64,000 nucleotides of DNA from positions 620,001 to 684,000 of the forward strand of contig NZ_QTJY01000001.1 in NCBI RefSeq assembly GCF_003703975.1, read 5' to 3'. Of this stretch, positions 8,937 through 53,840 are shown in pieces. This DNA comes from Larkinella soli. GTDB taxonomy: Bacteria; Bacteroidota; Bacteroidia; Cytophagales; Spirosomataceae. Numbering within the stretch: the stretch's first letter is position 1; the number at the start of each line of letters is the position of its first letter. The notes beneath the pieces are model-generated. The model searched no databases. It was given only the letters and a program-made list of their open reading frames with translations, and was not told where the DNA came from. A program made the position numbers and the translations under genes.

Positions 8937-9866
8937 ATGAACCCTAAATTCAGAAAGCTGCTGCCTCTTGCCTTTGCCTTTTTCCTCCAGCAACACGTTC
9001 AGGCCCAGACCATTCCCCGTGACGAACTGGTTTTTCTGACTTCCGAATGGAAAGGAGAACGCTTTCCGGACGGCCGACCCAAAGTGTCGGACGACATGCT
9101 CCGCCGGGCCAGAAACATCGGCATCGAGGAGGCCTGGACGGTCCTGAAAAATGAAGGATACAACTGCCAGTATGAAGGTGGCTGGAAGATCATCCACACG
9201 CAGGAGCCCATTGTCGGGCGCGCCCTGACCGCCTTGTACATGCCGAGCCGCCCGGATGTCGAGAAGAACATTATGGAGCGGGGCAAGAAGGAAGGCCGGA
9301 TCGGAAATACCAACGCCTGGCCCATCGACAAGCTCTCGAAGGGCGATGTGTATGTGGCCGACGGTTTCGGAAAAACCGCCGACGGCACGCTGATCGGCGA
9401 CAACCTCGGCAACTCGATCTTTGCCAAATCCGGCAACGGGGTCATCTTCAACGCGGCCGCCCGCGACCTGGAGGGCCTGCGGCAGATCAAGGGTTTCAAC
9501 GCCTATGTCCGCGACTGGGACCCCTCCTTCCTCAAGGATGTGGTGTTGATGGGGCTGAACACCCCGATCCGGATCGGGCGGGCCATCGTGCTGCCGGGTG
9601 ACCTCGTTCTGGCCAAAGCCGAAGGCGTTCTGTTCGTTCCGGCGCACCTGGTCGAGAAGGTAGTCATGACGGCGGAATTCATCGGCCTGCGCGATAAGTT
9701 CGGGCACGCCATGCTGCGGGAAGGAAAATATACGCCGGGTCAGATCGACAACCAGTGGACCGATGCCATCAAGGAAGACTTCCTGAGATGGCTGGATAAA
9801 AACCCCGGTGAAATGCCCATGAAACGGGCCGAACTGGATGCCTACATGAAAAACCGGACCTGGTGA
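8937..9866 (+). CDS. Exported RraA-like (HMG/CHA aldolase fold) protein
   Basis: 309 residues. The ATG at 8937 opens a Sec signal peptide (about residues 1-23, ending VQAQ). The RraA/dimethylmenaquinone-methyltransferase-like fold covers about residues 90-240, with VGRALTALYMPSRPD, DVYVADGFGKTADGTLIGDN, then GNGVIFNAAARDLEGL. In class II aldolases of this fold the last motif is usually DGAVRD; here the Arg-Asp remains but the DG step is Asn-Ala. A C-terminal extension of about 60 residues follows. RraA proteins are normally cytoplasmic, so export is unusual. The role may be aldolase or decarboxylase chemistry on an extracytoplasmic keto acid, but this is inference. A strong terminator follows. 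Confidence 0.8.
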   Translation: MNPKFRKLLPLAFAFFLQQHVQAQTIPRDELVFLTSEWKGERFPDGRPKVSDDMLRRARNIGIEEAWTVLKNEGYNCQYEGGWKIIHTQEPIVGRALTALYMPSRPDVEKNIMERGKKEGRIGNTNAWPIDKLSKGDVYVADGFGKTADGTLIGDNLGNSIFAKSGNGVIFNAAARDLEGLRQIKGFNAYVRDWDPSFLKDVVLMGLNTPIRIGRAIVLPGDLVLAKAEGVLFVPAHLVEKVVMTAEFIGLRDKFGHAMLREGKYTPGQIDNQWTDAIKEDFLRWLDKNPGEMPMKRAELDAYMKNRTW

Positions 9867-10001: not shown

Positions 10002-11450
10002 TCAAAGAGTGTTTTTCCTGCCGTTTTTCGAGCTGACGTTCGATTCCGTCGGCAGGCTGATCCTCCAGAGGTGGCCGCCTTCCCGCCCGCCGTACTCGAT
10101 GATGTACACGTCGCTGCCGACCAGGACCGCATCCGTCGGGCCGGTGAAGCCCTCCACGATCCGTTTGGTTTTGACGGTGTAGTTGTCTTTCCCCTTGTCA
10201 TAGGTCAGGTCCAGGTGCAGCAGGTCGCGGCCCTGGGTGGTGAACGGCCGCATCATGCCGGACCGCGCCCCACCCGAATACCGCATGACGAAACCGTCGC
10301 CCTTCAGGTCGTCGGCCAGAATTTTCCGGGTATCGAAGAACAGGGCCAGCGGGGAGCAGTGGGCCGTGAAGGTGCTGGTGGTGACGCCGGTGGTGTCGCC
10401 GTCCATGATCTTCCCGGTTTGGCGGTCTCGGTATTCGTTGGCGTCCGGGCCGAGGTTCTGCACCGCCGGCGAAAAGGTGACCCCTTCCGGGCGTTTCGGA
10501 AACCCGGGGTCGTTGTGCATGTATTTCATCAGGAAAGCGTGCGAAGACCGCGGGATGAACGGGTCTTTCACGGGGTCGGGCTGCCAGTCGGCAAACTGCT
10601 GCGGGTTGTCGATGCCGCCCATCACCCACGGAAAGCCGTAATGCCTCCCCTCCCGGATCCAGAACATATCCTCGCCGTGGTCGTAGTCGCTGGAGTTCGA
10701 CACCCCGAACAGGTTGCCCTCCGCGTCGAAGGCAATGTCGTAGGCGTTCCGGATGCCGTCGGCGTAAATGTACCCCTGCTGCTTCAGCCTGGCTTCGTCC
10801 GGGGACAGCATCAGGTCATGGGCTTTGATCGGAAACCGGAACACCTTCGAGGTCAGGCCATTGTCGCGGGCATTGGGATAGGCCCCTCCGTTGTCCTGCA
10901 CCTCGCCGTGGTCGGTCCGGGCCCCGGAGTTGACGAAGATGTACTTTCCGTCCGGGCTGATTTCCAGCGCGTTCCAGCCGTGGTCGAAGGTGGTTTTGTT
11001 GGTCGGGTATTCTTCGGTATCGAAGATCACCGTCATTTTGTATTTCCCGCGCCGGTTCGTGAAGCTCACCATCCTGCCCTTCGTGCCCTTCTTGTTGTTG
11101 GCGTCCACGTTGCCCGTCAGAAAAAGCGTGTTTTTATGGAAAGCCGCCCCCTGAAGCCGGTTGATGCCATGATCGGCCAGACTCAGCACTTTCCGGGCCA
11201 CCGGCCCGTTTCCGTCGAAACCGGTAATTTCAAACACGTCGCCGGGGAAGGTGGTGTAATACAGCTTCCCGTCCACCGGGTTCAGCAGGATGCGGACCGC
11301 TTCCGGCTCGACGGTCATGACGTGGGCAATCCGGATGTCAGGTCGAAGGGCCGTGGGCATTTTCAGGTCCTGGGCCGCGGCCGGCTCCCGGCCGGCTATA
11401 AGGCTCGCCAGCAGGCCGAAGGCGGCAATCGTTGAGCGAAAGGATGACAT
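10002..11450 (-). CDS. Exported PQQ-dependent sugar dehydrogenase-like protein (GSDH/sorbosone dehydrogenase type)
   Basis: 482 residues with a Sec signal peptide (about residues 1-26, ending PAAAQ). The six-bladed beta-propeller of the soluble glucose/sorbosone dehydrogenase family is indicated by RLQGAAFHKNTLFLTGNVD, ISPDGKYIFVNSG, YADGIRNAYDIAFDAEGNLF, and the characteristic SSDYDHGEDMFWIREGRHYG followed by FPWVMGG. Members use PQQ to oxidise sugars or alcohols in the periplasm. Calcium/PQQ ligands were not checked residue by residue. The gene follows the cytochrome c gene by 18 bp on the same strand, a natural electron acceptor pair. It may be the last gene of the SusCD-linked minus-strand locus. 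Confidence 0.85.
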   Translation of the reverse strand: MSSFRSTIAAFGLLASLIAGREPAAAQDLKMPTALRPDIRIAHVMTVEPEAVRILLNPVDGKLYYTTFPGDVFEITGFDGNGPVARKVLSLADHGINRLQGAAFHKNTLFLTGNVDANNKKGTKGRMVSFTNRRGKYKMTVIFDTEEYPTNKTTFDHGWNALEISPDGKYIFVNSGARTDHGEVQDNGGAYPNARDNGLTSKVFRFPIKAHDLMLSPDEARLKQQGYIYADGIRNAYDIAFDAEGNLFGVSNSSDYDHGEDMFWIREGRHYGFPWVMGGIDNPQQFADWQPDPVKDPFIPRSSHAFLMKYMHNDPGFPKRPEGVTFSPAVQNLGPDANEYRDRQTGKIMDGDTTGVTTSTFTAHCSPLALFFDTRKILADDLKGDGFVMRYSGGARSGMMRPFTTQGRDLLHLDLTYDKGKDNYTVKTKRIVEGFTGPTDAVLVGSDVYIIEYGGREGGHLWRISLPTESNVSSKNGRKNTL

Positions 11451-11468
11451 GATTAAGGGGTTCAGGAT

Positions 11469-11897
11469 CTATGGGGTTTGGGATAACTTCCGCAGGTAAG
11501 CCACAAGCTGCCAGCGCTGATCTTCGGAAAAGACCTCTTTGAAGGGCGGCATGTTGCCTCTGCCGGTGGTCATTTTCCAGAATAGGGCGCCGTCGGACTG
11601 TTTCACCGAGAGCGAGTCGTGAAAGTTGGCGGGTTTGACCCCTAGGGCCCCGCCCGCAGCGCCGTCGCCATACCCTTTTTCTCCATGACACGACTCGCAG
11701 TACAGCCCGTAGAGTTCTTCGCCCTGCGCCAGCACCAGCGGGCCGGGCTGGAGGGAACTCTTCAGGGTGTCGGCCCAGACCGGCGCTTTCCACCGGTCCT
11801 GAAACACGGACCGGGGGCCGGCCGTGAACGCAAATCCGCTCACGGCCAGCCCGGTTACTGCGACCCAGAGTGTTGTTATTTTATGTGGTTTCATCAT
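11469..11897 (-). CDS. Class I c-type cytochrome, monohaem, exported
   Basis: 142 residues with an N-terminal signal or anchor (about residues 8-26). One haem-binding CxxCH motif is present (YCESCH, Cys67, Cys70, His71), inside LYGLYCESCHGEKGYGDG, and the likely sixth ligand Met is in TGRGNMPPFKEVF near residue 115. This is a typical small periplasmic electron carrier or enzyme-associated cytochrome. It is 18 bp upstream of the PQQ-type dehydrogenase gene, which strongly suggests the two work together, passing electrons from sugar oxidation to the respiratory chain. About 138 bp containing an inverted repeat separate it from the PLP enzyme gene upstream. Confidence 0.9.
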   Translation of the reverse strand: MMKPHKITTLWVAVTGLAVSGFAFTAGPRSVFQDRWKAPVWADTLKSSLQPGPLVLAQGEELYGLYCESCHGEKGYGDGAAGGALGVKPANFHDSLSVKQSDGALFWKMTTGRGNMPPFKEVFSEDQRWQLVAYLRKLSQTP

Positions 11898-11930
11898 TTA
11901 CGGGTTTAGAACCGGTTTACCTCCCAACTG

Positions 11931-12034
11931 ACCACCCCCCGGCCACCTCCTTACCAAGGAGGGGGTGGCTCCGCAGACACGAATAGTGGCAGCGCACTCT
12001 CCCCCTCCTTGGTAAGGAGGGGGCCGGGGGTGGT
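11931..12034. repeat. Pair of inverted copies of a GC-rich palindromic intergenic repeat
   Basis: Copy A (11931-11965) and copy B (12001-12034) are nearly exact reverse complements of each other. Each contains its own small hairpin, CCTCCTT plus AAGGAGG around a three-base loop. The pair is separated by about 35 bp and could also fold as one long stem. A third copy of the core is at 53812-53832. The element fills most of the gap between the PLP enzyme and cytochrome c genes of the minus-strand locus. It looks like a dispersed REP-type element. Confidence 0.85.
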
Positions 12035-12035
12035 A

Positions 12036-13256
12036 TCAGGCGGAGGCTTTGGAAAGCTCCTCCCGAAGCCGTTTGGCCACGATTTTCTCCTGACCGGGTT
12101 TCATCATCCACACCGTCACGTTGACGCCGTTGGGGCCGCCCCCGCCGACTTCGATGGAAGGGTCACCGGCGCGCAGGCGGTCCTGAAGGTCTTTTCCGGT
12201 CAGCCTGATTTTGGCGGCATCCCAGCGAATCCGGAGGGTGGGCGTGTGGTTGCCCATGGGCGGCACATGCACCTCCGTCTGGATGCCGGGCAGGGGTTTC
12301 ACGGTGCCTTCAATGTGGGCGATGCCGTCTTCCCACGACTTCCAAAGTTTGGCGTGGTCGGTATTGATGAACTTCTCCAGCGCCACATACATCCCCAGAA
12401 CTTCCTCCTTGTTCACTTTCATGCCCCGCCCGATGTTGAAACCCCGGGGCGGCATATGCAGACGGGCGGCCGCGATGATGTCCTTTCTGCCCATCAGCAG
12501 GCCGGCGCTCTGAGGTCCCCGCATGGCCTTTCCGCCGGAAACCACCACGAAGCTGAAACCCATGTCGTTGAACCGCCAGAGGTTCTCGACCGGAGGCACG
12601 TCGGCCGCGATGTCGATGGAGGTCGGGATGTTGTGTTTCTTTCCAAGCGCCACCCATTCCTCGTGCATGATTTTGCCCTTGTCGGCTTCGATGTGCAGGA
12701 AGTGCATGAGGGCGGTCCGCTCGTTGATGGCCTTCTCGACGTCCTCCGCCGTTTCGACCTGAACGATCTTACAGCCGGTATTGGTCAGGGCGTGGTTGTA
12801 GACGATGTCGTGGGCCTTCTGACAGATCACCTCCGACTTCATGCCGGTGTATTCGAGGTGCGGCAGCTGCTCGACTTTCTTTAAGTCCATCCCGGTCAGG
12901 ATACCGGCGAGGCCGAGGGTCATCCCGGAAAAGGCACCGGAGGTAACTACGGCGGCTTCGGAGTGAACCAGTCTGGCGATCTTCTCGCCCACCTTGTCCT
13001 GAAGTTCATCGAGGAGGCAGAACTCGGTCGCGCCGTAATTGATGGCTTCCAGCACCTCGTCGTGCATCAGCGAACCGGTCATGTAGGTGAGGGTGCCGGC
13101 GCCGTTGATGAACGTCCGGACGCCCAGCTCCCGGAACAGGTCGCGCTTCGGGGCAGCGGCTGCCAGCGCCTGCGAAAGGGGTACGCCCGAGCCGATCAGC
13201 CCGCCGACGAGCGGAAAGGACGACAGGCGCTGAATCAGTTTTCTTCTGCTTAACAT
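12036..13256 (-). CDS. Tat-exported SelA-like PLP-dependent enzyme (aminotransferase class V fold)
   Basis: 406 residues. The N-terminus MLSRRKLIQRLSSFPLVGG is a twin-arginine-type leader, ending near PLSQALAAAAP. The core begins RELGVRTFINGAGTLTYMTG, as in the SelA/D-glucosaminate-6-phosphate ammonia-lyase-like family, and has TSGAFSGMTLGLAGILTG for phosphate binding and SGGKAMRGPQSAGLLMG with the Schiff-base Lys243. ISIDIAADVPP-type Asp (PTSIDIAADVPP) is the expected pyridine-nitrogen ligand. Members catalyse eliminations or isomerisations of amino acids or amino-sugar acids; this one probably works in the periplasm, since Tat export suits a PLP protein folded in the cytoplasm. It follows ridA by 19 bp. 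Confidence 0.85.
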   Translation of the reverse strand: MLSRRKLIQRLSSFPLVGGLIGSGVPLSQALAAAAPKRDLFRELGVRTFINGAGTLTYMTGSLMHDEVLEAINYGATEFCLLDELQDKVGEKIARLVHSEAAVVTSGAFSGMTLGLAGILTGMDLKKVEQLPHLEYTGMKSEVICQKAHDIVYNHALTNTGCKIVQVETAEDVEKAINERTALMHFLHIEADKGKIMHEEWVALGKKHNIPTSIDIAADVPPVENLWRFNDMGFSFVVVSGGKAMRGPQSAGLLMGRKDIIAAARLHMPPRGFNIGRGMKVNKEEVLGMYVALEKFINTDHAKLWKSWEDGIAHIEGTVKPLPGIQTEVHVPPMGNHTPTLRIRWDAAKIRLTGKDLQDRLRAGDPSIEVGGGGPNGVNVTVWMMKPGQEKIVAKRLREELSKASA

Positions 13257-13275
13257 GGCAGTGTCGGGTCAGGGA

Positions 13276-13731
13276 TCAGATGTAGGCGATGCAGTCCATT
13301 TCCACGAGCGAATCGCCCGGAACCCCTCCGTAAACCGCCACCGTGGTTCGGACGGGCGGCTTGCTGCCGAACCGGCCTTTATACACTTCGTTCATCGCTT
13401 TGTAGTCGTTCAGGTCGTGCAGAAAAACACTGACCTTCAGCACCTTTTCCATGGAAGATCCGGCCTTGATCAGTTCTCTCTCCAACTCTTTCAGGACTTC
13501 GTCGGTATGGACCCGAATGTCGCCTTCCTTGTGATACCCTTTGCCGGCTACAAAAACGAGGTTGCCGAATTTAGTAGAGCCGGAAAACAGCGGTACATCC
13601 TGCATCGTCTGCACATTGAACACTTCCTTTTCGGGAGCAGCCGGTTTGGCATTAGCGGCTACGCTCAGCCCGGTTACCCCAGCCAGAGAAGAAAACAGTC
13701 GTTTCAGGATGGATCTGCGTTGTGATTTCAT
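13276..13731 (-). CDS. RidA family protein with a twin-arginine-type leader
   Basis: 151 residues. The leader MKSQRRSILKRLFSSLAGVTG has a Tat-like RRxxLK pattern and the mature part starts after AANA. The RidA (YjgF) domain spans about residues 40-151, with DEVLKELERELIKAGSSMEK, VLKVSVFLHDLNDYKAMNEVY and PPVRTTVAVYGGVPGDSLVEM near the C-terminus, containing the Arg that binds substrate carboxylate in RidA imine deaminases. Family members hydrolyse reactive enamine/imine intermediates released by PLP enzymes. Placement 19 bp upstream of a PLP enzyme with the same leader type fits that job in the periplasm. Most RidA proteins are cytoplasmic. Confidence 0.85.
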   Translation of the reverse strand: MKSQRRSILKRLFSSLAGVTGLSVAANAKPAAPEKEVFNVQTMQDVPLFSGSTKFGNLVFVAGKGYHKEGDIRVHTDEVLKELERELIKAGSSMEKVLKVSVFLHDLNDYKAMNEVYKGRFGSKPPVRTTVAVYGGVPGDSLVEMDCIAYI

Positions 13732-13771
13732 TGGTTATCAGGTAAGTGGTTAAAAATGAAACAGCTAAATT

Positions 13772-15307
13772 TTACTTATCCCACCAGACGCGGGTCATGA
13801 ACGTGTTCGGCCCCTGGCGGGCAATGGCCTTGCCGTATTCGTCCGGATTCAGATTTTCCTCGGTCGGCGGATAGAGCATCCTCCTGAAAATCTGACCGCC
13901 GGTCGAATTGCCGGGATAGACGTTCGGCCTCAGCGTCGGGTACCCCGTCCGTCGCCAGTTGGAAAAAACCTCCTGGGCATTCGGAAACAGAGCGATCCAG
14001 AACTGGGTATGAATCTGTTCGAGCTGCTGCCCGGGCGTACCGCCCGACCGGAACGGGTGGGCTTTCAGGTAGGCCTCGATGCGGCTTTCCGGAATGACGC
14101 CCGCGCTGCCGTACAGCGCCCACTGCCGCAGTCCGGCGCGGGTGCCGTTCTCAAACAAACGGGCCGCCGGCGCTTCGGAATACCAGCCCCGCACCGCGGC
14201 TTCGGCCAGCAGGAGGTTCACCTCCGCCGGAGTCAGCAGCAGCATCGGCGCATCCAGCCGCAGCAGGGTGGCGGGGTTCGGCTCCGAATACGTCACGAAA
14301 TCCGCCGGTTTGGAGCTGACGCTCGACGCCATGCCTTTCTGGAGAGCCGCCGTAGTATCCGGTTTCTGGTTGACGTATACCACCGACAGTACCCCGAGCC
14401 GGGGGTCTCCGGTCGTCTTCAGGAAATCGATGAAGGTCTTCTGGTACTTCCCCCCTTCCGGGTTGCTGTACCCGTCGGCCCTGATATAATCGGTATTGAG
14501 CAGGTATAGTGCCAGCGGGTTTTTGTTGATGTCCTGCCCGCCGGTCTGATAGCGGATGCGGGCGATGTCGGCCGCTTCGGTGATCAGCTCTCCCGAAACG
14601 GCTTTCCGGACCCAGGATTCGGCCAGCGCCGGGTTCACCTTCGTCAGCCGCAGGGCGAGCCGGAGCATCAGTGAATTGGCGAAACGCTTCCACTTCAGGA
14701 TGTCACCCCCGTAGACTACATCGGCCCCGCCGAACGTCGGTTTGGCAGTATCGAACAGGCGGGGCGCTTCCTCCAGCTCGTTCAGCATATTCCGGTAAAT
14801 CTCCTCCTGCCGGTCATATTTCGGCTTGAAGACACTTCCTGAATACCCCCGTCCGGCTTCCGAATAGGGAATTTCACCGTACAGATCCGTCATCCGATGG
14901 AAGCAGTACACCCGCCAGATGCGGGCCACGGCCAGTTTGTTGACCTGTTCGGGTGAGCCGGAAACGGCCCGGATCACCTCCCCGATCTCGTTGATTTCGT
15001 TCGGATACCCGTTGTTGAATACCGTGTAGGGCGCCGTGCCCTGGTTGAAGATGTATTTGGCCCCGAAACCGGCAATTTCATTGTAACTCGTCGTGTACTG
15101 CATGGCTCCCTGCAGTCCGTGAAGCTGGTTTGAAGCGGCATCGTACTGGGATTTGCTGAAAACGTACTCCGGTATGATCTGCGTCGACGCATCCGGATTG
15201 GTATTCACCTCCTCGAACCCCTTCTCGCAGGAGATCAGCAGGGCCACGGCAGAAACCAGGGCCAGCCGGCAATTCGGGCGGGGAATCATTTTCAGGGTCC
15301 GTTTCAT
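13772..15307 (-). CDS. SusD/RagB-family outer-membrane nutrient-binding lipoprotein
   Basis: 511 residues with a lipoprotein signal (ALVSAVALLISC, Cys27). The mature start EKGFEEVNTNPDASTQIIPEY is typical of the SusD-like_2 group. The helical TPR-like core and the C-terminus (LFPNAQEVFSNWRRTGYPTL, then a R-M-x-Y-P-x-x-E block) match that family. SusD proteins sit on the cell surface as a lid over the SusC transporter and bind the incoming oligosaccharide or peptide. The start codon overlaps the susC-like stop by one base (TGATG on the coding strand), so the two are translationally coupled. The ligand is unknown; no glycoside hydrolase is encoded beside it. Confidence 0.95.
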   Translation of the reverse strand: MKRTLKMIPRPNCRLALVSAVALLISCEKGFEEVNTNPDASTQIIPEYVFSKSQYDAASNQLHGLQGAMQYTTSYNEIAGFGAKYIFNQGTAPYTVFNNGYPNEINEIGEVIRAVSGSPEQVNKLAVARIWRVYCFHRMTDLYGEIPYSEAGRGYSGSVFKPKYDRQEEIYRNMLNELEEAPRLFDTAKPTFGGADVVYGGDILKWKRFANSLMLRLALRLTKVNPALAESWVRKAVSGELITEAADIARIRYQTGGQDINKNPLALYLLNTDYIRADGYSNPEGGKYQKTFIDFLKTTGDPRLGVLSVVYVNQKPDTTAALQKGMASSVSSKPADFVTYSEPNPATLLRLDAPMLLLTPAEVNLLLAEAAVRGWYSEAPAARLFENGTRAGLRQWALYGSAGVIPESRIEAYLKAHPFRSGGTPGQQLEQIHTQFWIALFPNAQEVFSNWRRTGYPTLRPNVYPGNSTGGQIFRRMLYPPTEENLNPDEYGKAIARQGPNTFMTRVWWDK

Positions 15308-18300
15308 CAGAGTTTGACCAGCAGGTTCAGACCGTAACTTCTCGTCCGGGGCATCCCGAACGACTCGAACCCCTGGCTCGAACTGTTGGTATACCCGGAT
15401 TCCGGATCGAAATTGGGCGTTTTCCGGTAGAGGATCGCCAGATTGCGCGACACCAGCGACAGGGAGGCCGCCTGGAGTTTCAGCGCCTTCAGCCAGCTAC
15501 CCGGAAACCGGTACGAAACGATCATCTGCCGGAGTTTCACGAAGCTGCCGTCGTGCAGGAACAGCTCCGAAAACGACTTCTGATTGTCGTAGTATCCCCG
15601 CAACTGCCCGACCGTAACCGTACGCGAATAGGCATCGCCCTCCGGGGTAACGCCCTGCAAAACGAGTCCGTTTTCCCGACCCGGCAGCGTGGTTTTGAGC
15701 AAACCCATCCGCATGGCGTACACTTCCATGACGGAAAAAACCTTGTTTCCGAATTTTCCGTCGACCAGGAAGCCCAGCGAGAACGGGCCGCAGCTGAACT
15801 CATTGGTCAGGCCCATCGTCAGCGGGGGCACGCCGTTGCCGAGTTCCTGCAAACCGGTTGCCAGGGCGTAGCCGGTCGTGGGATTGTAAACGGTGTTGCC
15901 CTGCGCATCCTTCCGCACCCGCGTTCCGACGATGGTACCGTACGGTTTTCCGACCATGTTATTGATGTAGGCGTAATTATTGACCGTGGTCGCCATCTGG
16001 ATCGAATTGAGCCCGTCGGCCAGCCGGATCACCTGATTCCGGTTGTAGGCGACGTTGTAGGTGACGTTCCAGGTGAGGGCACCGGTTTTCACGGGGGTGC
16101 CCGTCAGCAGAACCTCGATGCCCCGGTTGCTCAGTTCACCCACGTTCAGAATGACGCTGGTATAGCCGGTCGTGGGCGAAAGCGCCGTGTTGACGATGTC
16201 GTCGGTGGTTTTGCGGTTATACAGAGTCAGGTCCAGGCCGAGCCGTCGCTTCATGAGCTGGAGGTCCAACCCGACCTCCCAGGTGGTGGAGGTCAGCGGT
16301 TTCAGCCGGGCGTTCGTGATGGAGGGGCTGGTAACGTTCTGCAGAGGCACCCCCGAACTGGGCACCATGCTGTAGGTCAGGTTGATGACGTAAGGATCGG
16401 GGGTGGCCCCGCCCACCTGCGCCCAGGAAGCGCGGATTTTGGCAAAATCCACGATCCGGGGCAACGTCAATGCCTGGGAAAGCACCAGACTTCCTCCCAC
16501 GGCCGGGTAGAAAATGCTGTTGTTCTTCGGGCTGAGGGTCGAGAACCAGTCCTGGCGGCCGGTCACGGTCAGGTAGGCAAACCCTTTAAAATCCAGATCA
16601 GCCGAGCCGAAGACGGAGTTGGTCAGCGTCTGCTGGGTCGTCGGAACGGTGGAGGAGGTGGTCAGGTTGGTGGGGCTGTAAAAATACGGGATGACGAACT
16701 GGGAGCCGGTCGTACTTTGCTGGCGGTATTCATACCGGCGACGGTTCAGCCCGGCCACGGCCGTCAGCCCGAAATGGCGGGAGAGCGCCCGGCTGTAGTT
16801 GACCGTCAGCATGGAGTTGGTTTCGGCCACATCGGCCTGAAGGCCCCAATACTGCCCTTTCGGTACGTACCGGGCACCCGTCGGCAGCACGTACGAATAA
16901 GTATAGCTGTAAAAATCCCGACTGACGGTCCCCTTCACGCTGAGGTTCTTCCCCAGCCGATACCCCGCCGAAGCCTGCCCGATAAAGCGGTTTTTGAGGT
17001 CTTCCTGCCGGTATTTGGCCGATACGAAATAACTGTTGGAAGCAATGTCGGCGTCGTTCCAGCCGATCTCGTTGCCGCCGGCGTCGTAGCCCGGTGCAAA
17101 CCAGCGGATATCGACGGTATTGGCCAGCATGTAGGGCATCCAGTTCGGGTTGCCGAGGGCGTCGCCGGCGGTGGGGCGGTTGCGGCCCTTTTCGATGTTG
17201 TACTGCCCCACTACCTCGAGGGACAGCCGCTCCCCGAGTTTGCCGTTGAGGTTCAGGTTGGCGGTTTTCCGGCCGAAGGTGGTGTTCGGGAGGATGCTTC
17301 GGCTGGTGAGGTCGGAAAGTGAAAACCGGTAGTTGAGATTTTCCGAACCGCCGGTGAAAGCCAGGGTGTTGGTGAACGTGGTGCCGGTCTGGTAAAAGTT
17401 GCGGAGGTTGTTTTTCCGGGCGGTATAGGAATGGATCCGGCCGTCGGCGGCCACGTACTCCGACCCGTCGATCCGGGCACCCCACGACCGACGGCCGGTC
17501 TGGATGGCTTCCCCGGGTCCGGCGGGTTTCTGGCCTCGGTCGCCCTGCCCGTATTCGTACTGCCAGTCGGGAAAAACCGCTGCGTTTTCCAGCATCAGGG
17601 TGCTGTTGTATTCGATCCCGATGCCTTTCCGGGTTTTGCCTTTTTTGGTCGTAATGAGGATGACCCCGTTGGCCGCCCGCGATCCGTAAAGAGCCGCAGC
17701 CGTGCCGCCCTTCAGCACGCTGATGGATTCGATGTCGTCCGGGTTGATGCCCGCAATGCCGTCGCCCCGGTCTACATTGCCGGCGCTGCCGTTGGTGGTG
17801 GGGCTTCCGCCCGGGGTGGTATTGTCGATGGGCATGCCGTTGACGACGTACAACGGCTGGTTGGCGCCGGTCATCGAGCCGTTGCCCCGGATGATGACCC
17901 GGCTCGACCCGCCCGGACCGGTGGACAGCCCGGTCACATTCACCCCGGCTATTTTCCCGGTCAGGGCGTTGGCGACGTTGTTTTCGCGCGCCTGCGTAAA
18001 TTCATTGCCCTTCATCTCGGCTACCGAGTAGGCCAGCGCCTTTTTATCCCGGGTGATCCCGAGCGCCGTCACGACCACTTCGTTCAGTGTGCTAGTTTCC
18101 GGCTCCATCCGGATGGAGAGCAACGACCCCTTACCGGCGTCTACCTCCAGCCGTTTGTAACCCAGCGAACTGATGATCAGTATGGGGTCTTCCGCCGGAA
18201 TTTCCAGGCTGAACCGGCCTTCGGCGTCGGTGGCGGTGCCGTGCCGGCTCCCTTTGATCACGACGTTGGTACCCGGCAATCCGGCCCCTTTTTCATCCAG

Positions 18301-18726
18301 AATGACCCCGTTCAGCCGCCGTTTCAGCGGCTCCGCCGGTACGGACGTTTCCGGTTCGAGGGGGGGATCTGTGCGTTTCAGAATGATGCGCTCGTTGACG
18401 ACCTCGAAAGTTACCCGATGCGGAGCCAGCACGCGCGCCAGCACCTCCCGAAGCGGAACCTCCCGGAACCGGTACGTGCTTTTCTGATCATAACTGAAAA
18501 TCTGGTAGTTATACATGAACTTTACGCGGGCAACGGATTCGAGCTTTTCAAGCACCTTTTCAATACCGGCGTCGGCAATGTGAAAGGAAATCTTCTGTTC
18601 CAGCATTTTCTGGGCGCCGGGGTTGTCGGCCCGGGCACCGGTCAGCAGGAGCAGAACAACCAGGTGGAGCAGAACCGGACCAACGAAGCGATGCAAGGCT
18701 TTCGGAAACAATAGACGTTTAGCCAT
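15307..18726 (-). CDS. SusC/RagA-family TonB-dependent transporter with N-terminal STN domain
   Basis: 1139 residues from the ATG at 18726, which opens the signal peptide (MAKRLLFPKALHRF, then a Leu-rich helix to GARAD); an upstream in-frame extension of 33 codons has no signal character. Domain order: STN (about 40-100, MLEQKISFHIADAGIEKVLE), carboxypeptidase-regulatory-like beta-sandwich (about 120-205), TonB plug (RDKKALAYSVAEMKGNEF, then VIIRGNGSMTGANQPLYVVN) and a 22-strand-type barrel ending in LNLLVKL. It imports SusD-bound ligand through the outer membrane, energised by TonB. The STN domain marks it as a signalling receptor that talks to the adjacent FecR/sigma pair. Confidence 0.96.
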   Translation of the reverse strand: MAKRLLFPKALHRFVGPVLLHLVVLLLLTGARADNPGAQKMLEQKISFHIADAGIEKVLEKLESVARVKFMYNYQIFSYDQKSTYRFREVPLREVLARVLAPHRVTFEVVNERIILKRTDPPLEPETSVPAEPLKRRLNGVILDEKGAGLPGTNVVIKGSRHGTATDAEGRFSLEIPAEDPILIISSLGYKRLEVDAGKGSLLSIRMEPETSTLNEVVVTALGITRDKKALAYSVAEMKGNEFTQARENNVANALTGKIAGVNVTGLSTGPGGSSRVIIRGNGSMTGANQPLYVVNGMPIDNTTPGGSPTTNGSAGNVDRGDGIAGINPDDIESISVLKGGTAAALYGSRAANGVILITTKKGKTRKGIGIEYNSTLMLENAAVFPDWQYEYGQGDRGQKPAGPGEAIQTGRRSWGARIDGSEYVAADGRIHSYTARKNNLRNFYQTGTTFTNTLAFTGGSENLNYRFSLSDLTSRSILPNTTFGRKTANLNLNGKLGERLSLEVVGQYNIEKGRNRPTAGDALGNPNWMPYMLANTVDIRWFAPGYDAGGNEIGWNDADIASNSYFVSAKYRQEDLKNRFIGQASAGYRLGKNLSVKGTVSRDFYSYTYSYVLPTGARYVPKGQYWGLQADVAETNSMLTVNYSRALSRHFGLTAVAGLNRRRYEYRQQSTTGSQFVIPYFYSPTNLTTSSTVPTTQQTLTNSVFGSADLDFKGFAYLTVTGRQDWFSTLSPKNNSIFYPAVGGSLVLSQALTLPRIVDFAKIRASWAQVGGATPDPYVINLTYSMVPSSGVPLQNVTSPSITNARLKPLTSTTWEVGLDLQLMKRRLGLDLTLYNRKTTDDIVNTALSPTTGYTSVILNVGELSNRGIEVLLTGTPVKTGALTWNVTYNVAYNRNQVIRLADGLNSIQMATTVNNYAYINNMVGKPYGTIVGTRVRKDAQGNTVYNPTTGYALATGLQELGNGVPPLTMGLTNEFSCGPFSLGFLVDGKFGNKVFSVMEVYAMRMGLLKTTLPGRENGLVLQGVTPEGDAYSRTVTVGQLRGYYDNQKSFSELFLHDGSFVKLRQMIVSYRFPGSWLKALKLQAASLSLVSRNLAILYRKTPNFDPESGYTNSSSQGFESFGMPRTRSYGLNLLVKL

Positions 18727-18812
18727 ATTTCGGGTCTTGTCGGGTAACTGGGCTTTTCCATCACACTCCCTTTCCGGTCGGAACCATTCGGGGCATCCCC
18801 CGGCGCTCACAC

Positions 18813-19922
18813 TCAGGGTCTGCAACCCCGGCTGCTGATGATAATATGGGCATCGGTCTGCGTGTATTCGGCACCGATGGTCCGGCAGATCAGGTCAATT
18901 TTTTCAAACAGCGGCTCGTCCGACAGCGAAGCCGTCAGGTAGCAATCCTTCATGACCTCCCGGTCGAACACGAACTGTACGCCGTAGGACTCCTCCAGGG
19001 TGGAAAATACCTCGGCGATGGGCGTCCGGCGAAAATGAAACGACTGACGCTGGATCGGCAGGGCCAGCAGGGCCGGTTTTTCGACCAGACTCCGGACGAG
19101 CCGGGTTTCCTTCGGGCTATACACCACCTGCTGGTTCGGAGTCAGCACGACGCCCTCCGCCTTTTTTTCGTCCAGGGTTCCGGCCCCGGTTTCCTTCGGG
19201 CGGGCAAACACCGAGACGGTTCCGGTTTTCACCACCACCTTCAGCTGGGAATCGGCTTCAAAGGCCCGGACCGTAAAACTGGTTCCCAGCACTTTGGTTA
19301 CGAGGCTGTTGGCGTAGACATAAAACGGTTTTTCAGGGTTTTTGGCGACCTCGAAAAAAGCCTCTCCGGAGAGATACACCTCCCGCTTTGCGCCCGAAAA
19401 CCGGCGGGGAAAACCGGCGCGGCTATGGGGCTGGAGCAGAATCGTGCTACCGTCGGACAACACCACGAGACTCGGCTTTTCGGAGTCGTTGATCCGCTCT
19501 TCCAGCGGTTCCGACGCCTGCTTCACCAGATCGGCATAGGTAGCCGACGGGCCGTTTTCCGGAACCGACCGGCCCGCGAGCCAGCCGAGCAGGCCCAGCA
19601 CCGCCAGAACGGAAGCGGCCACGGCGAATTTCATCCGCGACGACCAGAGCCTCCGGACGGGCGTTTCACTTTCAGCCTCCTCCAGCGAGTGTGACAGGCG
19701 GTGTATCTCCTCCCCGATCTCCCGGCTGGAAATCTGGTCGTATGCCCGGTATATATTTTCAAGCAGCTGCCCCGCTTTTTCGACAAAATCGGCTTTCTCC
19801 GGATGCGCCAGAAGCCAGGCTTCCCAGAACTTCCGGTCTTCCGGTTCGTCGAATAATTTCCATCGTCGGAAGGAAGAATCGGCGGCAAAATCCTCCGGTT
19901 CGAATTGCTGGTATGGGGGCAT
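18813..19922 (-). CDS. FecR-family anti-sigma factor
   Basis: 369 residues. A cytoplasmic N-terminal part (about 1-100, starting MPPYQQFEPEDFAADSSFRR) is followed by one membrane helix (about 105-125, AVAASVLAVLGLLGWLAG) and a periplasmic FecR domain with LSDGSTILLQPHSRAGFP and REVYLSGEAFFEVAKNPEKP, then the C-terminal DUF4974 domain that contacts the receptor STN domain. It relays ligand occupancy of the SusC-like receptor to the ECF sigma factor encoded just upstream. It ends 87 bp before the receptor start, and the sigma stop is about 115 bp upstream. Confidence 0.95.
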   Translation of the reverse strand: MPPYQQFEPEDFAADSSFRRWKLFDEPEDRKFWEAWLLAHPEKADFVEKAGQLLENIYRAYDQISSREIGEEIHRLSHSLEEAESETPVRRLWSSRMKFAVAASVLAVLGLLGWLAGRSVPENGPSATYADLVKQASEPLEERINDSEKPSLVVLSDGSTILLQPHSRAGFPRRFSGAKREVYLSGEAFFEVAKNPEKPFYVYANSLVTKVLGTSFTVRAFEADSQLKVVVKTGTVSVFARPKETGAGTLDEKKAEGVVLTPNQQVVYSPKETRLVRSLVEKPALLALPIQRQSFHFRRTPIAEVFSTLEESYGVQFVFDREVMKDCYLTASLSDEPLFEKIDLICRTIGAEYTQTDAHIIISSRGCRP

Positions 19923-20036
19923 CAGATCATGCTTTTACTGTTCCGGCAGGAAGGATGCCGAAAGGCTTCGTTCATACTCTTTTTTCAGGTTATTTTTTGA
20001 TTTTTTCATACGAGGCCCGGAACCTCCGGCAAGCCC

Positions 20037-20663
20037 TCAGTCGGGCCGGTTACCCACGAAAAAATACAGGAGAAACAGCAGCGTATAAAGCGAAAACAGC
20101 AGGCTGCCGCGCAGGGTGGATATGGCTTTGAAAAGCAGATTGGCGACCGACTGGCGGTTGATGTGCATAACCTCGGCGATCTGTTCGTTTTCCAGACCTT
20201 CATAAAACTTCAGAAAAACCACCTCCTGCTGTCGTTTGGGCAGCCCGCCGATTGCCTGGTGAAGCTTCCGTCGGTGTTCGCTCACGGCCTCCCCCTGTTC
20301 GATGTCGGTTTCGACGGTCCGGAAATCCGTCAGGTAACCGGCATCCTGCACGTTCACCGACCAGGCGGTGCGTTTGCTCCGGCGAAATTCCTGCAGCAGC
20401 TGGTTCCGCAAGGCCCTCAGGAAATAAATGGAAACATACTGAATCGTGATCGACTGACGGCGTTCCCAGATGTGAATGAACAGATCCTGAAGCGCATCCT
20501 TAATCACTTCCCGGTCCGCCGTGAAGTTGGTGGCGTAATTGAACAGGGTCCGATACTGCGAATCGGCCAGCCGGCAATAAGCCGCCTTGTCACCCGCCCG
20601 GGCCTGCCGCCAGAGTTCGAGAAGCGTTTCGTTTTCGTCAGAAATGCGCTGTTCCCTATTCAT
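20037..20663 (-). CDS. ECF RNA polymerase sigma-70 factor (FecI/Bacteroidota type) with hydrophobic C-terminal tail
   Basis: 208 residues. Region 2 is visible in VIKDALQDLFIHIWERRQSI and region 4 in LPKRQQEVVFLKFYEGLENE followed by QIAEVMHINRQSVANLLFKA, a helix-turn-helix. It should direct RNA polymerase to the FecR-SusC-SusD locus once released by the anti-sigma factor. The last 25 residues (after TLRGSL) form a hydrophobic run, LLFSLYTLLFLLYFF, before a short polar end. This is long enough to enter the membrane. The same trait occurs in the second ECF sigma of the window (46754-47335). Confidence 0.94.
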   Translation of the reverse strand: MNREQRISDENETLLELWRQARAGDKAAYCRLADSQYRTLFNYATNFTADREVIKDALQDLFIHIWERRQSITIQYVSIYFLRALRNQLLQEFRRSKRTAWSVNVQDAGYLTDFRTVETDIEQGEAVSEHRRKLHQAIGGLPKRQQEVVFLKFYEGLENEQIAEVMHINRQSVANLLFKAISTLRGSLLFSLYTLLFLLYFFVGNRPD

Positions 20664-21391: not shown

Positions 21392-22411
21392 TCAGTGGGC
21401 AACGGCCCTGCCTTCCCGAAAAGCGCCGGGCGTCGAACCGGTCCACTTCTTAAAGGAACGGTAGAATACGCTGGGTTCGGAGAAACCGAGGAGATAGGCG
21501 ATATCGATGGTGCTCAGATACGGGTCGCGCAGATGACGGACGGCCAGTTCCTGACGCACCTCATCCAGGAGCTGGCGGTAGGTTACGCCTTTCTCCTTCA
21601 GGTGCAGCTGGAGGGTCCGGACACCCACCGCCAGCCGGTCGGCCACGGTAGCCAGCGTCGGCTCCTCTCCTTTAAGCAGGCCCAGAATCTCCTTTTTGAC
21701 CCGGAAAATCAGATCGGGCTGCCGAAGCCGGCGAAGCAGTTCCACGGCGTGCTGTTCGAATACCGGAAACAGACTCGGGTTGGCGTTCAGGATCGGTGTT
21801 TCCAGCCAGGCCATGTTCAGAATCAGCTGCGTCTCCTGGGCGTCGAAAATCAGGTCCGCGCCGGCAAATACCCGGTTATAAACGGACAGATCGGCCGGGC
21901 GGGGGTAGGAAAACCGGATTTCCTCCGGTGTGAACGGGCGGCCGATTAGGGTCCGGATCGTGGGAATATAAAGTGAAAGCTCCGACCCGAGGGTATAGTC
22001 GGGATACCGGATTTCGGGGCTGGTAATGGTCAGGGAAAGCACAAACCGGCCTCCCTCCTTCCGACCGGCGGTCCGGACGCCTTCACAGACAATATCCTGA
22101 TACTGACAAAGTTTGTCGAAAGCATGGCCCAGAGTGGGGCAGTGCATCATGACATAGGCCAGCACCCCGAGCGACAGCGGATTGACCAGTTCGCCGAGCC
22201 GCAGCGGCAAAAACCGGTCCCCCGTCATGACGACGGATTCATGCCAGAGGTCCTGAACGGCCCGCAGGGGAATCCGGGCATCGGGGTTGGTGAGCAGGGC
22301 GGGATCGACGCCGACGGCCCGGCAAAGCGCGCCCGTATCGGCTCCGCTCTGCCCGATCGCCAGCAGAATGAGATTGAAAGAACCGGCGGAAAGTGTATCG
22401 TTCGAGGCCAT
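21392..22411 (-). CDS. AraC-family transcriptional regulator (arabinose-binding-like N-domain)
   Basis: 339 residues from the ATG at 22411; a longer in-frame version of 24 codons is not needed by the family. The N-terminal part (about 1-230) matches the OruR/ArgR-type effector-binding region of about 190 residues, with CQYQDIVCEG and LSLGVLAYVMMHCPTLGHAF. The C-terminal 100 residues form the AraC double helix-turn-helix: PTLATVADRLAVGVRTLQLH for the first, and YLSTIDIAYLLGFSEPSVFY, then RSFKKWTGSTPGAFRE, for the second. The regulated gene is not evident; the gene ends 3 bp from the DUF4260 stop and starts 34 bp downstream of the DUF1080-like gene. Confidence 0.9.
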   Translation of the reverse strand: MASNDTLSAGSFNLILLAIGQSGADTGALCRAVGVDPALLTNPDARIPLRAVQDLWHESVVMTGDRFLPLRLGELVNPLSLGVLAYVMMHCPTLGHAFDKLCQYQDIVCEGVRTAGRKEGGRFVLSLTITSPEIRYPDYTLGSELSLYIPTIRTLIGRPFTPEEIRFSYPRPADLSVYNRVFAGADLIFDAQETQLILNMAWLETPILNANPSLFPVFEQHAVELLRRLRQPDLIFRVKKEILGLLKGEEPTLATVADRLAVGVRTLQLHLKEKGVTYRQLLDEVRQELAVRHLRDPYLSTIDIAYLLGFSEPSVFYRSFKKWTGSTPGAFREGRAVAH

Positions 22412-22445
22412 GCTCACGAAGATACGCAAGCCGATCAAAAGCCGC

Positions 22446-23123
22446 TTACCGGGCGGAGGTAATTTTGAGGTTGGCGAAGTCACCGCCCGACTCGTTCCCG
22501 ACCCAGAGTCCGATCCGGCCGGTCCGACGGTCGTTCAGTTTGGTGACGACCAGGCTCGGTGCCGCACTGCCGTCCACAAACACGCTGACCTGCTTTCCTT
22601 CCACCACGATCCGGGCGTGGAACCAGCCGTTCGGATCGGGGGCGGGTTCGACGGCTTTTTCAAACTGGTCGGTGCGTTCCTTCCGCAGCCGCTGCCAGTC
22701 GAAATCGGGCAGGGACATATACTGCACGGCATGGACCCGTCGAACGGGGTCACTGGCCCGGAAATTGAACGGCCGGAAATAAACGGCGTCGAAGGTGCGG
22801 TCGTCGGTGCCGTGAAAAGCGATGCCGACAAAGCTTTTCTGGAGCATGTCTTTCCCCCGGATGTCGACTTCGATGACCCCTTCGCCGAAGGTTTCTTTTT
22901 CGATCCAGGCTACGCCGTCCCCCGGTTTTTCGTCGAAACGGACGGCCTCTTTTCCTCCTTCCCGTATTGGGCTCAGGCTGCGGTTCTGCACCTGAAATGC
23001 CTGTTTATCAGCCAGTTCTGATAGGTTCAACGTTTTAGACCTGCCGTTCTGCGCGATCAAAACGACAGGGAGGAACAGCCCCAGGAAAGCCAGGGCCGTT
23101 CTCACATTCGGAAATCGTTTCAT
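22446..23123 (-). CDS. Exported DUF1080-like (concanavalin/LamG-type) protein
   Basis: 225 residues with a signal peptide (about 1-25, ending LIAQ). The mature protein is a single beta-jelly-roll-like domain with GKEAVRFDEKPGDGVAWIEK, FVGIAFHGTDDRTFDAVYFR, then a C-terminal GRIGLWVGNESGGDFANLKI strand typical of DUF1080/laminin-G-like domains. DUF1080 members include 3-keto-disaccharide hydrolases, but many are binding modules, so catalytic activity is not claimed. It starts 8 bp after the DUF2911 stop, so the two exported proteins form an operon. Confidence 0.75.
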   Translation of the reverse strand: MKRFPNVRTALAFLGLFLPVVLIAQNGRSKTLNLSELADKQAFQVQNRSLSPIREGGKEAVRFDEKPGDGVAWIEKETFGEGVIEVDIRGKDMLQKSFVGIAFHGTDDRTFDAVYFRPFNFRASDPVRRVHAVQYMSLPDFDWQRLRKERTDQFEKAVEPAPDPNGWFHARIVVEGKQVSVFVDGSAAPSLVVTKLNDRRTGRIGLWVGNESGGDFANLKITSAR

Positions 23124-53791: not shown

Positions 53792-53811
53792 TTCACTCCC
53801 AACCACCCCAA

Positions 53812-53840
53812 CCCCTCCTTGGTAAGGAGGGGCTTTTTTT
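53812..53840 (+). terminator. Terminator of hslU formed by the dispersed CCCCTCCTT/AAGGAGGGG palindrome
   Basis: CCCCTCCTT at 53812-53820 pairs with AAGGAGGGG at 53824-53832 over a 3-base loop, then a C and seven T residues. It is the same palindromic core as the pair at 11931-12034, here with a T run, so the repeat serves as a terminator at this place. Confidence 0.88.

Follow-up and report, generated by a model that had tools for sequence, protein, structure and literature searches.

RidA proteins are regarded as cytoplasmic guards against the enamines made by PLP enzymes. Why, then, does a SusCD locus of Larkinella soli encode a RidA-family protein and a PLP enzyme that both begin with a twin-arginine leader, and what would the two proteins do outside the cytoplasm? 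The window analyzed here is a 64,000-nt stretch of contig NZ_QTJY01000001.1, and the locus lies at positions 20663-10002 on its minus strand (Table 1).

Organization of the locus

A sequence-only reading of this DNA had proposed a run of sigma factor, FecR, SusC, SusD, RidA, PLP enzyme, cytochrome c and dehydrogenase-like genes on one strand, and all of them are present in this order on the minus strand. SusC and SusD are adjacent, as in SusCD polysaccharide-utilisation loci. The longest open reading frame of SusC starts at 18825 and overlaps FecR, so that an internal start is likelier. The tight spacing also claimed for RidA and the PLP gene holds, with RidA 40 bp after SusD and the PLP gene 19 bp after RidA. 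The cytochrome c gene is 138 bp further away, behind a hairpin.

Table 1. Features of the Larkinella soli locus, in window coordinates
Feature	Coordinates	Strand	Evidence
ECF sigma factor, FecI-type (Bacteroidota)	20037..20663	-	Sigma70_r4_2, TIGR02985
FecR anti-sigma regulator	18813..19922	-	FecR and FecR_C domains
SusC outer-membrane transporter	about 15307..18741	-	TIGR04056, 610 bits, above cut-off
SusD-like lipoprotein	13772..15307	-	PF12771, 280 bits; PF12741
RidA-family protein with twin-arginine leader	13276..13731	-	PF01042
Twin-arginine leader of RidA, MKSQRRSILKRLFSSLAGVTGLSVAANA, then K	13648..13731	-	Sequence and conservation
DgaE/SelA-type PLP enzyme with twin-arginine leader	12036..13256	-	TIGR01437, 170 bits; NF047797, 144 bits (cut-off 600 bits); both below cut-off
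Twin-arginine leader of the PLP enzyme, MLSRRKLIQRLSSFPLVGGLIGSGVPLSQALA, then A	13161..13256	-	Sequence; RR invariant
Hairpin-forming spacer with paired palindromes	11898..12035	-	MFE -86.7 kcal/mol, z -7.5
Exported mono-haem cytochrome c	11469..11897	-	PF13442
GSDH-like beta-propeller, putative aldose dehydrogenase	10002..11450	-	PF07995, 26 bits (cut-off 25)
Exported RraA-like protein (pyruvate-aldolase superfamily), convergent	8937..9866	+	PF03737

The paired palindromes of this spacer fold as one long hairpin, and the palindrome is a high-copy repeat of the organism's own genome, with 182 genome matches at one mismatch or fewer. Because the spacer forms a very stable hairpin and is a genome repeat, the cytochrome c and propeller genes may form a unit separate from the PLP gene, and we are less sure of their co-transcription with the upstream genes. 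A terminator scan returned fewer matches than in shuffled sequence and no usable candidate. When gene orders are compared, relatives carry deacetylase and PQQ dehydrogenase genes where the window has the hairpin spacer.

The last gene of the run had been read as a PQQ-type dehydrogenase, a label that survives in part. A moderate-confidence model of the propeller is most like the PQQ aldose dehydrogenases 2ism and 2g8s, but the match to the GSDH family is weak and any PQQ binding putative. Comparison with the sequences of solved structures gave no match up to E 0.1, and a search of the genome for pqqC gave no match, with controls that were equally empty, so that it speaks neither for nor against PQQ synthesis. 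Cytochromes c of the window type occur in 32 loci (window included), and that of the window would be the electron acceptor.

Twin-arginine leaders of RidA and the PLP enzyme

In both leaders the RR motif is followed by a long uncharged stretch, with predicted cleavage after ANA in RidA and at the end of the tabulated leader in the PLP enzyme, whose AlphaFold model has low confidence at residues 12-33, the leader region. The RR pair is kept in 94/94 PLP enzymes and 72/72 RidA proteins (each count includes the genome's own two). A TATFIND-like rule, with false positives in 7/51 sigma factors and 8/432 other ORFs, is passed by 89/94 and 71/72 of them, respectively. The same rule scores zero for the deacetylase, PQQ dehydrogenase, cytochrome c, SMP-30, CBM9 and RraA proteins of the same loci. 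Since these other exported families score zero, the Tat-type leaders are a property of the PLP and RidA families and not of the neighbourhood. The genome also encodes TatC (227 bits in a profile search). The Granulicella (Acidobacteriota) module likewise carries RR leaders on its PLP enzyme and RidA, and a Sec-like leader on its deacetylase.

Export of both proteins by Tat, as the twin-arginine-type leaders had first suggested, is thus very likely as predicted from sequence. A reading in which the RR segments serve as N-terminal membrane anchors or as Sec signals, leaving the enzymes cytoplasm-facing or Sec-exported, could point to the default TatP expression RR.[FGAVML][LITMVF] (PMC1182353), which the PLP leader fits and the RidA leader misses by one residue (Ile at the fourth position). 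We nevertheless find it very improbable, given the invariant RR pair, the recurrence of the same leader type in Acidobacteria, and the modestly hydrophobic core and A-x-A-like ends seen in most PLP and RidA relatives, compared with the Sec-type leaders of their neighbours. Moreover, the nearest non-exported relatives begin some 35 residues further in and have no leader.

The PLP enzyme, RidA and their neighbours

The PLP enzyme had been described as a SelA-like lyase. The relationship to ammonia-lyases stands, although its nearest relatives are DGL and DgaE and not SelA, even if it falls under both curated cut-offs. Selenocysteine synthase itself is ruled out, because the score is 29 bits where the cut-off is 268, and the fold is closer to DGL. 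Structure prediction, which had been suggested as a check, gave a model with pLDDT 89.6 in which the leader region alone is uncertain. Its best solved match is DGL (7lc0; TM 0.78/0.85, E 1.2e-30), followed by the O2-dependent enzyme Cap15 (8t7j; TM 0.80/0.88). In a tree, the Tat-type PLP enzymes lie on one side of a branch of modest support (78/72), and DGL and Cap15 share a group to which the exported clade does not belong.

In an alignment of relatives, the PLP lysine is conserved in 94/94, and 93/94 have Lys or Arg at the position of DGL Arg226, near the carboxylate in the DGL work. In the docking model of that work three arginines lie near the phosphate; one of them, Arg301, is replaced in the exported clade, mostly by Thr, a loss that suits a non-phosphorylated substrate. 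The His162/His163 loop of DGL is not conserved, with His at 163 in 0/94, a mapping that depends on a gapped alignment. The H163A mutant of DGL releases an enamine and not an imine (PMC9529869), and because the exported clade is without His163, this analogy hints, and only hints, that its PLP enzyme could need RidA. Loss of His163 alone does not hold up as a predictor of RidA linkage: the plasmid-borne homologues of Rhizobium, Thalassospira and Martelella keep the HH pair, yet also have a Rid-protein neighbour. Two PTS-type dga operons, which carry DgaE and a KDGP aldolase, have the HH pair and no Rid gene within the stretch covered. Altogether, the PLP enzyme is probably an amino-aldonate ammonia-lyase, judging by its relatives and its model. 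The SelA-like fold also includes the O2-dependent Cap15, so this activity is not certain.

The window RidA carries the Ribonuc_L-PSP domain (68.9 bits, cut-off 27.3) and stays under the TIGR00004 cut-off (65 bits against 106). Its R128 and E144 are invariant in 28/28 relatives and align with the active site of solved Rid proteins; from this alignment, we take them to be R105 and E120 of RidA. Among sequenced plasmids, the RidA that matches it best comes from the Granulicella module (63%).

A scan of 84,980 species genomes yielded 549 relatives of the PLP enzyme, and the best 73 loci of these were read. Together with the genome's own second copy they make 74 loci outside the window, many of them from Dyadobacter and therefore non-independent. 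RidA is near the PLP gene in 63/74, which supports its proposed role as the partner of the PLP enzyme. A deacetylase is near it in 72/74; this family is of the PRK09237 type, over cut-off, and related to 2ogj, which is Atu3266 of the amidohydrolase group cog3964. SusD and SusC lie on the same strand no more than 6 kb away in 31/74 and 29/74 (about 40%), the second copy included. The linkage of the pair to SusCD is thus found elsewhere, as a neighbourhood search had been proposed to show, but the idea of SusCD as part of the pathway needs tempering: on these gene counts SusCD is an optional feeder, and the exported amidohydrolase/deacetylase is the constant partner. The remaining neighbours are a cytochrome-fused dehydrogenase (54/74), a GSDH-like propeller (36/74), CBM9 (26/74), a BASS carrier (17/74), lactonase (14/74), SMP-30 (11/74) and MFS-type carriers. 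The Acidobacteria module of Granulicella also has a lactonase and a BBE-type oxidase. Exported RraA is near the PLP gene in 11/74, and its family occurs in 13 loci; the RraA protein of the window is convergent, whereas its orthologue lies inside the operon after the deacetylase in L008, L020 and L022. A sample of 392 Bacteroidota genomes that spans the phylum contained clear homologues in about 10.

Compared with related loci, the window locus has no deacetylase and no cytochrome-fused dehydrogenase. It appears to have lost both and may rely on copies elsewhere in the genome. The second copy, on another contig (C24), reads SusC-SusD-RidA-PLP-deacetylase at 72% identity, and on a third contig (C8) a further deacetylase has HGSNAT/DUF5009 and SMP-30 proteins as neighbours. 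A profile scan also found no glycoside hydrolase or lyase among the window genes scanned, an absence from which it had been argued that the ligand is unlikely to be a plain polysaccharide. The absence stands, but the argument is weakened because Spirosoma relatives have GH20 hexosaminidases and the L. soli genome has GH20 genes elsewhere than the window. In the Spirosoma locus L006 the GH20 gene lies between SusD and RidA, and in L007 and L009 it is further downstream; with L032, these are the loci with GH20 in or near the cluster. It is close to the module in few loci.

A proposed periplasmic amino-sugar route

We consider it somewhat probable, on sequence and models, that the locus serves a periplasmic amino-sugar route that includes C1 oxidation, deacetylation, deamination and clearing by RidA. 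SusCD, under its own sigma/FecR pair, would import a ligand containing N-acetylhexosamine to the periplasm, where the dehydrogenase and cytochrome c would oxidise C1 and lactonases would open the resulting lactone. An exported cog3964-type amidohydrolase, encoded elsewhere in the genome, would remove acetate. The Tat-exported PLP enzyme would then catalyse beta-elimination of ammonia from a 2-amino-2-deoxyaldonate such as D-glucosaminate, probably releasing an enamine, as it lacks the proton-donor His found in its nearest solved relative. The Tat-exported RidA would convert the enamine/imine to 2-keto-3-deoxyaldonate and ammonia. Cleavage of this keto acid to pyruvate may fall to the exported RraA-like protein, and the BASS- or MFS-type carriers of relatives may import the products. 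We infer the substrate, each reaction and the order of steps from what the sequence shows, namely gene content, leaders, families, conservation and the predicted fold.

An amino-sugar acid, one of the two kinds of substrate already proposed, remains the most likely, with neighbours of sugar type and DGL as the nearest enzyme. Oxidation had tentatively been placed after deamination, an order that we reverse. The substrate of a DGL-type lyase has to be a 2-amino-3-hydroxy acid, and a hexosamine becomes one on C1 oxidation. Because the module contains lactonases and dehydrogenases and the DGL-type step needs a 2-amino aldonate, deamination most likely follows C1 oxidation. We put forward more tentatively, and with more doubt than confidence, the whole picture of a periplasmic oxidative amino-sugar pathway in Bacteroidota and Acidobacteriota, in which a Tat-exported RidA polices the enamine and a lyase without its own proton donor depends on it.

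The same genes could instead serve N-acyl-D-amino acids or hydroxy amino acids such as D-serine and D-threonine, with the amidohydrolase deacylating, the PLP enzyme dehydrating D-Ser or D-Thr, and RidA clearing the aminoacrylate. The cog3964 amidohydrolases lend this some weight, with weak activity towards N-acetyl-D-serine and good activity towards acetyl-(R)-mandelate. So does OngC of an analogous pathway, which also deaminates D-Ser and D-Thr (PMC9537276). We judge this substrate class unlikely all the same, since the neighbours (lactonases, aldose-dehydrogenase-like propellers, CBM9 and GH20) are of sugar type and the nearest enzyme is a glucosaminate-phosphate lyase. Less likely still is that the PLP enzyme works oxidatively with O2, as Cap15 does, or is a decarboxylase, with RidA hydrolysing the oxidation imine and the compound being modified rather than a sugar degraded. 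The rank of Cap15 among the fold matches and the position of the exported clade outside the group of DGL and Cap15 speak for it, but the closest family models are DgaE and DGL, and the deacetylase, lactonase and aldolase neighbours fit catabolism.

A conserved Tat-exported PLP-RidA pair would extend enamine chemistry to the periplasm. Because the two enzymes would be a dedicated pair and their compartment holds few other PLP targets, they would offer a clean test of the need for RidA. The recently described oxidative chitin pathway would also gain a periplasmic equivalent, and families labelled only 'SelA-like', 'amidohydrolase/deacetylase' and 'RraA family' would gain functions. The parts are known; their compartment and combination were not found described in the open-access literature searched, which likewise yielded no RidA that is exported and no glucosaminate pathway in the periplasm.

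Among known systems, DGL (PDB 7lc0, 7lce) shares with the window PLP enzyme its fold, PLP lysine, basic Arg226 position, and similar length and catalytic-domain start. The window enzyme differs in being only 26% identical, with an RR leader, no PTS partner, neither the proton donor His163 nor Arg301, and scores below both curated cut-offs. The window RidA similarly has the Ribonuc_L-PSP domain and invariant catalytic Arg and Glu of the Rid enamine-imine deaminases, but it carries a twin-arginine leader, sits under the TIGR00004 cut-off, and would serve a single exported PLP enzyme and not general housekeeping. Precedent for Tat export of a PLP-loaded enzyme comes from PvdN and PtaA of Pseudomonas, which are exported folded and act in the periplasm; they serve siderophore tailoring, and the parts of that source consulted mention no exported RidA partner (PMC6206403). 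An independent parallel, likewise a prediction, comes from haloarchaeal chitin clusters, in which glucosamine would be oxidised and then deaminated by a DGL homologue; these clusters also have a RutC-family gene (PMC12343721). That prediction matches the order and the Rid-family neighbour proposed here, but it runs via a phosphorylated intermediate, and the homologues are about 33% identical and, where examined, leaderless.

A close parallel is the oxidative chitin utilisation (Ong) pathway of Pseudoalteromonas prydzensis (PMC9537276, PMC12017989). It breaks down GlcNAc1A with a TBDT, GH20, deacetylase, deaminase and RidA, and growth is abolished when RidA is deleted (PMC9537276). Both systems have TonB-type import, an amidohydrolase deacetylase, a PLP deaminase and RidA in one cluster (RidA in 63/74 loci and the window), and an amino-sugar acid as the substrate, here a proposed one; GH20 lies in or near the cluster in some related loci and is absent from the window. 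Ong catabolism is cytoplasmic, whereas the window pathway would be periplasmic. OngC is of fold type III and the window PLP enzyme, by its model, of the DGL-type (SelA-like) fold type I; OngB is D-aminoacylase-like and the window-type deacetylase is of the cog3964 type; and here an exported RraA and dehydrogenases are present and the window locus has no kinase. What the essential RidA of Ong does is, according to its authors, unknown (PMC9537276), a question that a periplasmic PLP-RidA system would make testable.

Rid and PLP proteins in related loci

In 13 loci a second Rid subfamily, YjgF_endoribonc (PF14588), is encoded close to the PLP gene; some of these loci also carry the Tat-type RidA. 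Judged by their leaders, which are Sec-type in most PF14588 proteins, these are two Rid families predicted to be exported separately. In Chitinophagaceae and Granulicella, the main PLP enzyme is accompanied by a longer paralogue (~530-570 aa) that itself bears an RR leader.

Oxidase, carrier and upstream genes

The FAD/BBE-type oxidase of the Granulicella module possibly stands in for the PQQ dehydrogenase in C1 oxidation, and the MFS carrier found in Sphingobacterium and Parapedobacter is a candidate importer of the product. Genes upstream of the window locus are included in the table.

Features of the window and of related loci (L-numbers)
Feature	Position	Strand	Context
PF14588 Rid protein	L056 12554-13105; also L044, L057, L062, L065, L068, L073, L074		
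Longer PLP paralogue	L024 13310-14941; L039, L058, L068; L116 9701-11299		
FAD/BBE-type oxidase	L116 14011-15480		Granulicella module
MFS carrier	L033 13048-14316; L059 13247-14512		between deacetylase and RidA
3-keto-disaccharide hydrolase domain protein (PF06439)	window 22446-23123	-	upstream of locus
AraC-type regulator	window 21392-22483		adjoins PF06439 protein gene
Palindromic repeat CCCCTCCTTGGTAAGGAGG	window 11898-12035, 53811-53830		

A palindromic repeat within the locus

The first of the two tabulated repeat sites occupies the place of the deacetylase and PQQ dehydrogenase genes of relatives. The palindrome, frequently paired, has 182 matches in the genome with at most one mismatch (reversed control, 0), and resembles an element of the REP or MITE type.
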